Of a stretch of 44,708 bases of DNA, positions 1-22,168 are shown piece after piece. The notes beneath the pieces were generated by a model, which was not told the origin of the DNA, did not search any database, and saw only the letters and a program-made list of their open reading frames with translations. Where the stretch lies: positions 1-44,708 of the forward strand of contig RXJV01000046.1 of NCBI GenBank assembly GCA_003963075.1, in the 5' to 3' direction. Numbering within the stretch: position 1 is the stretch's first letter; each line of letters opens with the position of its first letter. Source of the DNA: Burkholderiales bacterium (GTDB lineage: Bacteria; Pseudomonadota; Gammaproteobacteria; Burkholderiales; Burkholderiaceae_C). Position numbers and translations under genes: made by a program.

Positions 1-30
1 GCTTCAAGCACTGACTCCGCGCAACTGTTT

Positions 31-189
31 GACCGGAGCGTAGCGGAGGGAGTTTTGCGCGGGCCCTCAAGGCCTGAGCAGCGCAGGGCACCCGCAGCTG
101 CGCTGCGGCGGTGCGGTCGGGGGTCGCTTCTTTGCCTACTTTCTTGTCGACACAAGAAAGTAGGTCGCCCGCCGGGGCGAATTCCCGGC
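31..189 (+). repeat. Hairpin-bearing intergenic repeat, copy A
   Basis: First of three copies of a roughly 160-nt repeat (others at 15760-15921 and 16081-16243). It opens with a GAGCGTAGCGG block and GTTTTGCGCG. It then carries a perfect 13-bp hairpin (135-164, arms CCTACTTTCTTGT and ACAAGAAAGTAGG, loop CGAC) and ends with a GC-rich stretch closing in CCCGGC. Copies B and C have the same order of parts and nearly the same length (162 and 163 nt), but different stem bases that keep pairing. I see no convincing gene inside it. Repeats of this look are, from memory, common between genes in Burkholderiales; I know no established function. Confidence 0.6.
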
Positions 190-263
190 GCGATGCAACG
201 TGCCAGACGCATCGTCGCCAGGGCATCCTCATCCGCGTCGCGACCCTGCCTAGCTCGCCCATG

Positions 264-4915: not shown

Positions 4916-6100
4916 ATGCGCTCTGCCCTGAAGGACCTCTCGCCCTCCACGCTGGTCGCCGGCTTTGTCGCGGTGCTGGTGGGCTACACCAGCTCGGTCG
5001 CCATCATCTTCCAGGCCACCGTGGCGCTCGGCGCCACGCCGGCGCAGACCGCCTCCTGGCTGTGGGCCCTGGGCCTGGGCATGGGACTGACCAGCCTGGG
5101 CCTGAGCCTGTGGACCCGCCAGCCCATCCTGACCGCCTGGTCCACGCCGGGCGCGGCGCTGCTCGCGGCGACCAGCGGCCTGGCCCTGCCCGAGGCCATC
5201 GGCGCCTTCATCGTCTGCGGGCTGTTGATCTTTGCGGCCGGTGCCAGTGGGGTGTTCGAGAAGCTGATGGACCGCCTGCCCGTCGCGATCGCCTCGGCCC
5301 TGCTGGCCGGCGTGCTGGCCCGCTTCGGGCTCGACGCCGCCGCCAGCGTGCAGACCGCGCCCGGCCTGGTCGTTCCGATGGCGCTGGCCTACCTGGCCGG
5401 GCGACGCTGGTGGCCGCGCTATGCGGTGCCGGGCGTGCTGCTGACCGGCCTGGTGGCCGCCGCGGCCCAGGGTCGGCTGCATCTGGCCGGCGTCGACCCC
5501 GGCCAGGTGTTCGTGCTGCCGCAGTGGACGACGCCGGTGTTCCGCTGGCAGGCCCTGATCGGCGTGGCGCTGCCGCTGTTCCTCGTGACGATGGCCTCGC
5601 AGAACCTGCCCGGCGTGGCGGCCCAGCGCGCCAGCGGCTACAGCACGCCGGTATCGGCCAGCATCGCCGTCACCGGCGTCGCGACGACGCTGCTCGCGCC
5701 CTTCGGCGGCTATGCCTTCAACCTCGCCGCCATCACCGCGGCCATCTGCATGGGCCGCGAGGCCCACGAAGACCCGGCGCGGCGCTACACCGCGGCCATG
5801 GCCGCCGGCGTCTATTACGTGCTGCTGGGCCTGGCGGGCGGCGGCGTCGCGATGCTGCTGGCGGCCTTCCCCCGCGAGCTGGTGGTGGCGATCGCCGGGC
5901 TGGCGCTGCTGGGCACCATCGCTGGCGCACTGGCCGCGGCGCTGAAGGACGAGGCCCACCGCGACGCGGCCATCCTGACCTTCCTGGTCGGCCTGTCGGG
6001 CCTGAAGCTGTTCGGCATCGGCTCCGCGTTCTGGGCGGTGGTGGCCGGCAGCGCGGCCATCGCCTTTGCGGCCTGGCGTCGTCCGCTGACCGCGCGCTGA
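4916..6100 (+). CDS. benE: BenE-family benzoate/H+ symporter
   Basis: A 394-aa inner-membrane protein matching the BenE family, which imports benzoate or related aromatic acids with protons in Acinetobacter and Pseudomonas. Evidence is the near full-length match in memory: N-terminal FVAVLVGYTSSVAIIFQA, then WSTPGAALLA, FLVTMASQNLPGVA, and the GYAFNLAAITAAICMG segment near residues 265-280. There are about 12 membrane segments. No benzoate degradation genes lie nearby, so the transported acid cannot be named from context. The stop codon falls inside the first unit of an 11-bp tandem repeat. Confidence 0.88.
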   Translation: MRSALKDLSPSTLVAGFVAVLVGYTSSVAIIFQATVALGATPAQTASWLWALGLGMGLTSLGLSLWTRQPILTAWSTPGAALLAATSGLALPEAIGAFIVCGLLIFAAGASGVFEKLMDRLPVAIASALLAGVLARFGLDAAASVQTAPGLVVPMALAYLAGRRWWPRYAVPGVLLTGLVAAAAQGRLHLAGVDPGQVFVLPQWTTPVFRWQALIGVALPLFLVTMASQNLPGVAAQRASGYSTPVSASIAVTGVATTLLAPFGGYAFNLAAITAAICMGREAHEDPARRYTAAMAAGVYYVLLGLAGGGVAMLLAAFPRELVVAIAGLALLGTIAGALAAALKDEAHRDAAILTFLVGLSGLKLFGIGSAFWAVVAGSAAIAFAAWRRPLTAR

Positions 6101-6205
6101 GCGCCGGCTGAGCGCCGGCTGAGTGCCCGCTGAGTGCCCGCTGAGTGCCCGCTGAGTGCCGGCTGAGTGCCGGCTGACCGCAGGCTGAGCGCTCGTTGAG
6201 CAACA
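6096..6205. repeat. 11-bp tandem repeat overlapping the benE stop
   Basis: Seven near-perfect head-to-tail copies of GCTGAG(C/T)GCC(G/C) run from 6096 to 6172, followed by three degenerate copies to 6205. Units 1-2 read CGCCG, 3-5 TGCCC and 6-7 TGCCG, so the array has three internal sub-blocks, as expected from stepwise duplication. The benE TGA (6098-6100) lies in unit 1. The 11-bp period is close to one helical turn. Confidence 0.9.
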
Positions 6206-15698: not shown

Positions 15699-15759
15699 GT
15701 TTGAGGGTTGCGGGGTTGCTGGGTTGATGTGTGGCAGCCGAGCGCCTGCTCGCGGCTTT

Positions 15760-15921
15760 GCCGGGAGTCCGCCCCGGCGGGCGGGTAACTTTCTTCTGCG
15801 GCGCCAGAAGAAAGTCACCAAAGAAGAGGCGCTGAACCGCATCCCATCACCAGCCCGGCAACGACAGCGCGCGAAAACACGCTTCAGCCTGTTGCCCCGA
15901 AGCGAGCCGCTGCGCTCTCGC
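15760..15921 (-). repeat. Hairpin-bearing intergenic repeat, copy B (left arm)
   Basis: Left arm of the composite palindrome and the same family as copies A and C, oriented on the minus strand. Its hairpin occupies 15784-15819 with 15-nt arms and a 6-nt loop. Read on the minus strand the arms are GGTGACTTTCTTCTG and CAGAAGAAAGTTACC, with a single G.T (G-U) wobble. Confidence 0.65.
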
Positions 15922-16080
15922 GTCTGACTTGTGACGAGCACCAGGCATCGCCCCACCGGCCCGTCCGACGCGCGGCTGCACGCCGTGCTCACCAGCCATC
16001 CAAACCCCATGCAGCGCCGGCGTGCAGCCGCGCGTTAAGCGGGATACCGGTCCGAGCTGTAGCGATCTGGACAAGTGGTG

Positions 16081-16243
16081 GGCGAGAGCGCAGCGGCTCG
16101 CTTCGGCCCGGGATGGCGCGGCGTGTTTTCGCGCGCCGGTGACGGCGCCGTGATGCCCGGATGCGGTTCAGCGCCTCTCTTTTGGTGACTTTTCTCTGGC
16201 GCGACAGAGAAAAGTTACCCCGCCGCCGGGCGGGACTCCCGGC
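16081..16243 (+). repeat. Hairpin-bearing intergenic repeat, copy C (right arm)
   Basis: Right arm of the composite palindrome, plus-strand orientation. Its hairpin spans 16184-16219 with arms GGTGACTTTTCTCTG and CAGAGAAAAGTTACC. Compared with copy B two neighbouring base pairs are swapped (C-G to T-A and T-A to C-G), so pairing is kept although both arms changed. Confidence 0.65.
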
Positions 16244-16318
16244 AATTCCCCGAGCAGCCGCACGCCCCGCAAAAGCCTCCAAACTGCACGCACACCCAAG
16301 CGACGCACACAGCAAAAC

Positions 16319-20942: not shown

Positions 20943-21887
20943 TCAGACGGTCGCGGCCTGACCAGCGCGTTGTCGATGGTAGTTGGCCTCGAACTCGGCC
21001 GGCGGGACGTAGCCCAGCGGCTCCATTAATCGGTGGTGGTTGAACCAAGCCACCCATTCCAGTGTGGCGAGTTCCACCGCTTGCTTGGTCTTCCACGGCC
21101 CGCGCCGGTGGATCACCTCGGCCTTGTACAGCCCGTTGATGGTCTCGGCCAGGGCGTTGTCGTAGCTGTCGCCCTTCGAGCCCACTGACGGTTCGATGCC
21201 GGCTTCGGCAAGCCGCTCGCTGTAGCGAATGGACAGGTATTGCGAACCCCTGTCGGAGTGGTGGGTCAGGCTGCCGTCGTCGGACGGCTAGCGGTCGTAC
21301 AGCGCCTGCTCCAGCCCGTCGAGCACGAACTCTGTGTGCATCGAACTGCTCTGGCGCCAGCCCACGATGCGCCGGCTGAACACATCCACCACAAACGCCA
21401 CGTAGACCCAGCCCTGCCAGGTCGAGACGTAGGTGAAGTCCGAGACCCAGAGCTGGTTGGGCCGCCCGGCACGGAACTGCCGGTTGACCCGGTCCAGCGG
21501 GCATGGCGCCTTGGGGTCAGGGACGGTGGTGCGCACCGCCTTGCCTCGGCGCACGCCCTGCAGGCCTTGATGGCGCATCAACCGCTCGACGGTGCAGCGG
21601 GCCACAGCCACGCCCTCGCGGTTGAGTTGGCGCCAGACCTTGTCGGCCCCGTAGACCTGCATGTTGGCCTGCCACACGCGCTGAATCTGAGGCACCAGGC
21701 TCGCATCGCGCTGCGCGCGACGCGAGCACAGCGCAGGGTTGCGCTGCCGGGCGGCATGGCGCCAGTACGCCGACGGGGCGATCTGCACGGCGCGACAGAT
21801 CGACTCGACCCCGAACTGCTGGCGATGCTGGTCGACGAAGTCCTTCAGGAGTTGAAGCGGCGGTCGAGCTCCGCCTGGGCGAAAAAC
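20943..21887 (-). pseudogene. IS3-family transposase OrfB with in-frame amber codon
   Basis: The DDE integrase half of the transposase, expressed by -1 frameshift from orfA. The order is HTH_21-like region ([18 protein letters not shown]), the first Asp in WVSDFTYV, the second in [12 protein letters not shown], then a TAG stop at 21288-21290. After it the same frame continues with [12 protein letters not shown], the catalytic Glu region NALAETINGLYKAE, and WVAWFNHHRLMEPLG to the true stop. Relatives have an uninterrupted protein here, commonly with Gln, so CAG to TAG is the simplest change. Without readthrough the product lacks the catalytic Glu. Confidence 0.85.
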
Positions 21888-22168
21888 GCGCTGGCCAGCT
21901 TCAGAATCTCGTTGGCCTTGCGAAGTTCGCGGACCTCGCGTTCGAGTTCCTTCACGTGCTGGGCCTCGCTGGTCGTCACGCCCTCCCGCACGCCGGCATC
22001 GACCTCTGCGCGCTTGACCCACTCGTTCAGCGTCTGCGGCACGCAGCCGATCTTGGGCGCGATGGACTCGATGGCCGCCCACAGCGACGGGTACTCCCCT
22101 CGGTGCTCCTGCACCATCCTCACCGCGCGCTCACGCACCTCGGGCGAGAACTTATTCGACTTGCTCAT
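21845..22168 (-). CDS. IS3-family OrfA (transposase helix-turn-helix subunit)
   Basis: A 107-aa protein: an HTH domain ([13 protein letters not shown] ... [12 protein letters not shown]) followed by a leucine-zipper-like helix ([21 protein letters not shown]) ending AELDRRFNS. This is the standard OrfA that binds the IS ends and is fused by frameshifting to OrfB. It appears intact. Confidence 0.9.
21881..21887 (-). promoter_or_regulatory. Programmed -1 frameshift site of the IS
   Basis: The minus strand reads G-TTTTT-C here. The orfA codons TTT TTC (Phe-Phe) can slip one base back to GTT TTT, which leads directly into the orfB frame (Val-Phe-Arg-Pro, then [14 protein letters not shown]). Position and product order fit IS3-family frameshifting. 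Confidence 0.65.

Follow-up and report, generated by a model that had tools for sequence, protein, structure and literature searches.

A palindrome between frmA and fghA in a Burkholderiales genome belongs to a dispersed family of paired inverted arms with triplex-type hairpins, and arms of this kind enclose genes in other genera

The gap between frmA and fghA of a Burkholderiales bacterium holds a large palindrome, which raises the question of whether this structure is peculiar to one intergenic gap or represents a family and, in the latter case, what the members of that family do. The window analyzed here comprises 44,708 nucleotides and is the whole of contig C47. A first-pass annotation of the window had described four inverted pairs that share the center 16001.5, and all four are present, including CTGCTCG/CGAGCAG and the hairpins at 15784-15819 and 16184-16219. 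The central repeat is perfect and has the 32-nt spacer assigned to it, but its length is 18 bp (15968-15985/16018-16035) and not 17 bp. Without gaps, 179 of the 256 positions over 15746-16257 pair about this center, compared with at most 103 in 200 dinucleotide shuffles of a 1,401-nt stretch and at most 114 in the rest of the window, which upholds the view that this is a structured element and not a set of chance repeats. A repeat search delimited two arms of 194 nt (15739-15932 and 16071-16264) that are 77% complementary, and folding of 15700-16290 as single-stranded DNA gives -239.5 kcal/mol (z = -22, with none of 100 shuffles as low). The 512 bp first assigned to the element (15746-16257) are palindromic, but these limits are too narrow: since the consensus of 161 related arms reaches further out, we place the element at approximately 15706-16281 (Table 1), where the left limit, based on the outer consensus and the flanks, is uncertain by ~15 nt. 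Across these 161 arms, the outer consensus reads GGTTGCTTTTGC..GAGCC.. and runs inward to GGCTGCACGC near the center. As judged by eye, most variants in alignment A1 preserve both alternative pairings of the outer GC hairpin by means of compensating changes, while one common variant has a mismatch. Going by the ORF list, the element presumably encodes no protein, as the first-pass annotation had stated. Elsewhere in the window, positions 21774-21890 (minus strand) contain its only Rfam match, an ALIL pseudoknot (100.5 bits), which is a signal of IS3-type insertion sequences, and positions 6072-6203 contain a tandem 11-nt repeat of ~12 units.

Table 1. Coordinates of the element and its parts in the 44,708-nt window
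Feature	Position	Strand	Remarks
Class A arm of a second element (sister subfamily)	1..190	-	cut by contig end; hairpin 138-161, mirror tract AAAGAA
frmA, end of stop codon	15698
Whole element	15706..16281	.	two inverted arms around a 32-nt center; limits approximate
Left outer GC hairpin	15760..15784	+	overlapping alternatives GCCGGG/CCCGGC and CCGCCC/GGGCGG; read by eye
Left triplex-type hairpin	15784..15827	+	stem pairing; stem-tract linkage
Left Y stem	15790-15797		TTTCTTCT
Left R stem	15806-15813		AGAAGAAA
Left mirror tract	15820-15827		AAAGAAGA
Inner arm block, left	15902..15921	+	GCGAGCCGCTGCGCTCTCGC; near-invariant in alignment A1 (42 arms)
Central inverted repeat	15968..16035	.	18 bp perfect, 32-nt spacer; GGCTGCACGC core conserved in each half
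Inner arm block, right	16082..16101	-	conserved in alignment A1
Right triplex-type hairpin, other stem type	16176..16219	-	stem pairing; stem-tract linkage
Right mirror tract	16176-16183	-	AAAAGAGA
Right R stem	16190-16197	-	AGAGAAAA
Right Y stem	16206-16213	-	TTTTCTCT
fghA, start	16319

The hairpin in each arm is built from a Y stem, an R stem and, 6 nt further on, a purine tract that mirrors the R strand. The two arms of the window copy have different stems, and the tract follows the stem: TTTCTTCT/AGAAGAAA is accompanied by AAAGAAGA, and TTTTCTCT/AGAGAAAA by AAAAGAGA. This agreement extends to all 203 distinct hairpins that were scored (192 perfect, 11 one-off and none worse), which cover 12 stem types, with 146 of the 203 having the window's two types. 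The scored hairpins had been found without use of the tract, which was read at a fixed offset of 6 nt, and only perfect stems of at least 6 nt were admitted. Before duplicate copies were removed, there were 222 readings from the window and loci L131-L345, of which 210 were perfect, and with later loci added the set comprises 218 hairpins (207 perfect, 11 one-off). Past the three anchored positions, own tracts agree at 100% and swapped tracts at 57%, and none of 100,000 permutations reached the observed value. Given that the genus loci were fetched with part of the tract fixed, a cleaner test of the linkage is offered by an order-wide pattern that leaves the tract free. It matched at least 63 of 250 Burkholderiales genomes and at least 41 of 121 genera, where some of the 63 genomes match by chance, since the reversed control matched ~40 of the 250; in the listed matches with a real stem, the tract tracks both the sequence and the length of the stem. 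Because a mirror tract cannot pair with the stem in antiparallel Watson-Crick geometry, the simplest reason for this linkage would be an intrastrand triplex, and stem and tract vary together as a class II intrastrand triplex (class IV on the other strand) would require. With respect to the class II definition (Y stem, R stem, mirror purine tract, stem of 6 to 15 nt), both window arms agree at 8/8 positions; the first loop of an 8-nt stem has 8 nt, above the published search range of 1 to 6 nt, or 6 nt when the closing G-C is taken into account. The TMECO pattern CCCTCNCCC..GGGNGAGGG..GGGNGAGGG is a different one, as the window stems are TTTCTTCT and TTTTCTCT.

We then asked how far the element is spread. 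Matches to the DNA of the whole element were found in at least 21 of 60 relatives (at least 19 of 20 genomes of the genus and at least 2 of 16 from other genera of the family) and, among the matches listed, in 0 of 24 genomes of other families. The genus hairpin pattern, which holds three A of the mirror tract and served to fetch the genus loci, gave at least 153 matches (76 forward, 77 reverse) in at least 13 of the 20 genomes and none with the reversed pattern as a control. Together with the window copy, 80 genus regions, picked by the analyst mostly from visible pairs, make up a set of 81 loci and 161 arms. An inverted arm pair within 700 bp is present at 74 of these loci and one more pair is split by an IS; the seven loci without a pair within 700 bp are L229, L267, L283-L286 and L289. 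Several sites are common to multiple congeners, which suggests that movement is slow or that the sites are kept for another reason. A 1.58-kb pair in G009 that had been considered as an autonomous version is an IS, presumably of the IS5 family, inside an element, and the duplicate hairpin pairs at L252 and L258 in G002 adjoin single N letters and look like scaffolding artifacts. A palindromic insert of ~85 nt, the same in L214, L230, L262 and L263 (three genomes), lies by eye in the loop of the outer GC hairpin and is a smaller element nested in a larger one. The short repeat GCTTTTGCnnnGAGCCTTTCGACTCGGTGC occurs outside elements in the flanks of L211-L228 (G009), sometimes in tandem, and also forms the outer end of the element.

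In the source genome itself, a DNA similarity search with the whole element or with one arm returned no second copy. The first-pass annotation had named a lack of other occurrences in this genome as a refuting result, but the hairpin pattern recovered 12 hairpins of a sister subfamily and 0 controls, with a mirror tract in 12/12. This subfamily came to light only after the hairpin at the left end of the window had been read. Five of its hairpins belong to class A, five to class B and two to a third class, and there are two full dimers, each with one A and one B arm, that match themselves at 71% when inverted. Seven of the 12 hairpins are located near contig ends; besides the left end of the window, sister-subfamily arms lie near the ends of contigs C22, C76, C79, C90, C115 and C165.

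The arms display two opposing trends, one between and one within elements. Arm identity is 0.80 in the same genome and 0.71 between different genomes. Orthologous arms are 0.85-0.99 identical in G002/G012 and G002/G007, which we took as close (one G007/G002 pair has 0.80). Against more distant congeners the value drops to as low as 0.64, even where the arm has a paralog of 0.86-0.96 identity in its own genome, suggesting that copies are homogenized within genomes. Sister arms of one element have a mean identity of 0.729, compared with 0.789 when arms of the same genome are paired at random, and exceed 0.85 in 0 of 69 pairs where 15.6 are expected (0 of 2,000 simulations as low); these values come from draft assemblies, in which perfect palindromes may break contigs. 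The arms of the window copy had been described as co-linear to the base, and its hairpin-to-core distances are indeed 190 and 190, but this is not a trait of the family: only 11 of 71 dimers, window copy included, have equal distances, against 23.9 expected from random pairing within genomes. A matched register of sister arms was looked for with two landmarks and not found. Since the arms are kept unlike and their spacing is unmatched, the palindrome, or the pairing of arm with arm, is probably not the selected feature. Unlike close arms, together with identities of up to 97% in cargo elements, where the arms are far apart, fit a loss of near-perfect close palindromes, and palindromes are described as break hotspots in the relevant part of PMC4245961; two distinct end types would also fit.

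To follow gain and loss at one site, we compared the 3' end of frmA by eye at 19 loci of 18 genomes. The full dimer is present at five (G000, G009, G006, G002 and G012), fused outer ends only at four (G011, G014, G001 and G007) and no element at eight, while two were left unscored. Congeners without the element at the same place are the reason why we count it as inserted between frmA and fghA, as had been proposed, and these loci also dispel the concern that all relatives might have the same gap with no conserved palindrome. Of the nine copies, whether full or remnant, all but that of G009 (~40 nt) start no more than ~15 nt past the frmA stop, which makes one old insertion with repeated loss likely; the window copy was probably inserted before several congeners split. 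The element also occupies two further sites in G012 at which either G002 or G007 is without it. The comparison of frmA-fghA gaps that the first-pass annotation had suggested thus yielded element-free sites, but no target duplication was seen, as these sites are too diverged for the junctions to be read. At loci with a named fghA, at least one of them in the same genus, 0 of 80 had the hairpin. A rearrangement has taken place in G002 (C1, ~1125-1133 kb), where the two sequences that flank the L244 site are ~8 kb from each other and oppositely oriented.

In three other genera (G073; G106 and G181; G209), and only there, the arms flank different ORFs. Eight of nine long-spaced pairs have inverted arms of 216-343 nt that are 78-98% identical and ~0.6-1.1 kb apart; one long-spaced pair has an arm split into 125 + 86 nt, and the remaining pair, L323, gave no arm match. 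In the cargo-less dimers of the same genera, arm identity is 71-75% (L326, L331 and L332), L330 matches over 63 nt only and L325 gave no arm match. A Pfam scan of 10 cargo ORFs identified one methyltransferase and one Mrr-type endonuclease; one ORF has a sub-threshold FG-GAP match and seven have none. Starting from two G073 elements, we looked for their flanking sequences in 17 congeneric genomes and fetched 13 regions. Site 2 is empty in G290, holds a cargo-less dimer in G291 and is loaded in G073 (methyltransferase), G293 (152 aa) and G295 (FRG domain), with one arm in G296 and other DNA without arms in G294. At site 1, G073 and G290 (GrpB-like) have both arms around different cargo, G296 has one arm, and G287, G247, G286, G156 and G219 have inserts without recognizable arms. 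The arms of L409 (G295) and L413 (G290) were recognized by similarity, their hairpins being shorter or altered and failing the exact 6-nt test. At L417 (G219, 530-2061), a site that holds arm-flanked cargo in other species has three ORFs in tandem, which might be an integron-like array; Pfam identifies one as a GNAT acetyltransferase, and the other two look similar. A Guanidine-I riboswitch (L324, 5200-5311, plus strand, 89.3 bits) lies close to a cargo-bearing element in G106.

Given these states, we lean slightly towards the view that the family is a dispersed, non-autonomous cassette whose arms are the ends of a unit able to carry a gene, and that the window copy is one without cargo. Against this view count the sites shared by congeners, the fghA loci without the hairpin, the sighting of cargo in other genera only, the one-armed or armless inserts and the altered hairpins at the cargo sites, and the failure of TMECO, the nearest motif studied, to give a stable triplex in vivo. 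The main rival is an exchange without any mover, in which the arms serve as landing pads and incoming DNA recombines via homologous arms or flanking genes, thereby swapping cargo in the manner of the minimal mobile elements of Neisseria. In favor of such an exchange are the varied cargo found between one set of flanking genes, the one-armed and armless inserts at these sites and the homogenization of arms within genomes, as well as the fact that no transposase or recombinase was found in any element read or among the cargo read. Landing pads leave unexplained, however, both the dispersal to many unrelated intergenic sites in one genome and the tie between stem and third tract, and we regard them as an unlikely account.

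If the cassette element depends on a mover, the host's RAYT transposase would be a candidate, in which case the family would be a REPIN/BIME-type repeat. Its inverted hairpin pair, intergenic location and dispersal resemble those of RAYT-associated REP doublets, and Y1/RAYT genes are present in 20/20 genomes of the genus (1-4 each). Yet their number does not track the number of elements, none of 20 loci checked among the 40 matches listed has the hairpin within 1.5 kb of a RAYT gene, and the element differs from REPIN/BIME in its larger arms, its third tract and the genes that arms of this kind carry in other genera, so that we consider this origin very improbable. Carriage by phages was rejected as well, a phage search having given no match. 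In IMG/VR, 86 stretches match two 20-nt cores, 11 of them with hairpin and mirror tract and one of these as an inward pair; the two opposed core matches of IMG/VR L445 are 435 bp apart and failed the exact test.

Another possibility is that the element is useful to its host as an RNA or regulatory element, namely a bidirectional terminator, an mRNA 3' end or an sRNA. It folds strongly (z = -22 as single-stranded DNA), and its ends lie near gene ends in many loci. In addition, the outer ends of both arms of a Caballeronia record match the Rfam family RF02421, Bp1_684, with 49.5 and 38.0 bits, one above and one below the gathering score of 44; the window element does not match it and has no Rfam match at gathering score, and hits admitted up to an E value of 5 scored far below gathering. 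Bp1_684 is a predicted Burkholderia sRNA and one of 15 candidates in an RT-PCR figure of PMC3521395. The portion of that paper concerned with it treats it as a single sRNA, whereas the element has paired arms, a mirror tract and, elsewhere, cargo. The neighboring genes of 74 loci are 46 tandem, 19 convergent and 9 divergent, compared with 297, 101 and 66 for all adjacent pairs under rough gene calls. There is thus no orientation bias, on which ground a terminator role was rejected, and a separate terminator-like hairpin was seen by eye beside the L247 element. The absence of such a bias, together with the frequent absence of the element from congeners, makes a regulatory role less likely. The parts of PMC4666352 that deal with function report, from earlier work, that PIT motifs lack promoter or terminator activity, and state that RNA does not form the purine-motif triplex. 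A pyrimidine-motif triplex could nevertheless form on the complementary strand. On the whole, we judge an RNA or regulatory function to be improbable.

How does the element relate to known systems? MITEs and mobile insertion cassettes (MIC) are non-autonomous and have inverted ends, with or without passenger genes. The element shares with them its inverted ends and its dispersal to many sites but has folded ends of 200-340 nt and unlike sister ends. No match of these ends to an IS emerged here, and the element-free sites are too diverged to reveal a target duplication. Minimal mobile elements of Neisseria and integron gene cassettes exchange small accessory genes at fixed sites, and the attC sites of integrons are direct repeats used by an integrase; in the family described here, by contrast, each unit is bounded by inverted arms. 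The closest relatives of the hairpin are the class II intrastrand triplex motifs, which PMC4666352, in the sections on motif structure, treats generally and, for the G/C-rich TMECO, in detail; there, no stable TMECO triplex was seen in vivo. As far as those sections go, the likeness includes the order of Y stem, R stem and mirror purine tract, multiple copies, inverted configurations and variable sites, whereas TMECO is one G/C-rich 9-nt motif and the stems of the element are A/T-rich and of many types, the second loop being 6 nt long (GTNACC or GTAGGC). Moreover, the element's hairpin is set in an arm of ~290 nt that is paired and able to flank a gene. TMECO-type G/C-rich motifs occur inside or beside elements of the A/T type in L343 (Variovorax), L333 (3113), L334 (4175) and L185, and those at the center of L343 form an inverted pair. 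Paired arms are also found in records of Pasteurella multocida, Caballeronia and Variovorax. Ilyobacter has a single hairpin, and L344 (Diaphorobacter) failed the exact triplex hairpin test. The first-pass remark that no named class is known for the element therefore needs to be divided: the hairpin with its mirror tract is of a known kind and the outer arm end in Caballeronia matches Bp1_684, while the window element has no Rfam family, and searches of the open-licence literature turned up no account of an element that combines unlike inverted arms with exchangeable cargo.

If the cassette reading is correct, the arms, which lie in inverted orientation and each combine an outer GC hairpin with a triplex-capable hairpin and a conserved inner block, would form the ends of a unit able to carry a gene between them. 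An enzyme supplied in trans might recognize these ends in their folded, single-stranded form and move the unit, and recombination between copies might then replace arm sequences and swap cargo. Breakage, or deletions that spare nothing but the outer ends, would remove near-perfect close palindromes, and the frmA copy would be an old, empty remnant. It is tempting to speculate further that the family constitutes a new class of mobile gene cassette in Burkholderiales and beyond, with a mover that recognizes the three-stranded fold of the ends and with the window cassette being empty, a proposal that we offer as a tentative one and consider rather doubtful in this full form.

Catalogues of bacterial intrastrand triplexes exist, but there is no consensus on what these structures do. 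With 12 covarying stem and tract types, found across an order and beyond at fixed places in a paired-arm element that is able to carry genes, it becomes directly testable whether selection acts on a triplex and to what end. The element also sheds light on at least one "sRNA" family and on why contigs break in genomes of this kind, and it hints at a route for the exchange of small accessory genes that may have gone unrecognized so far.
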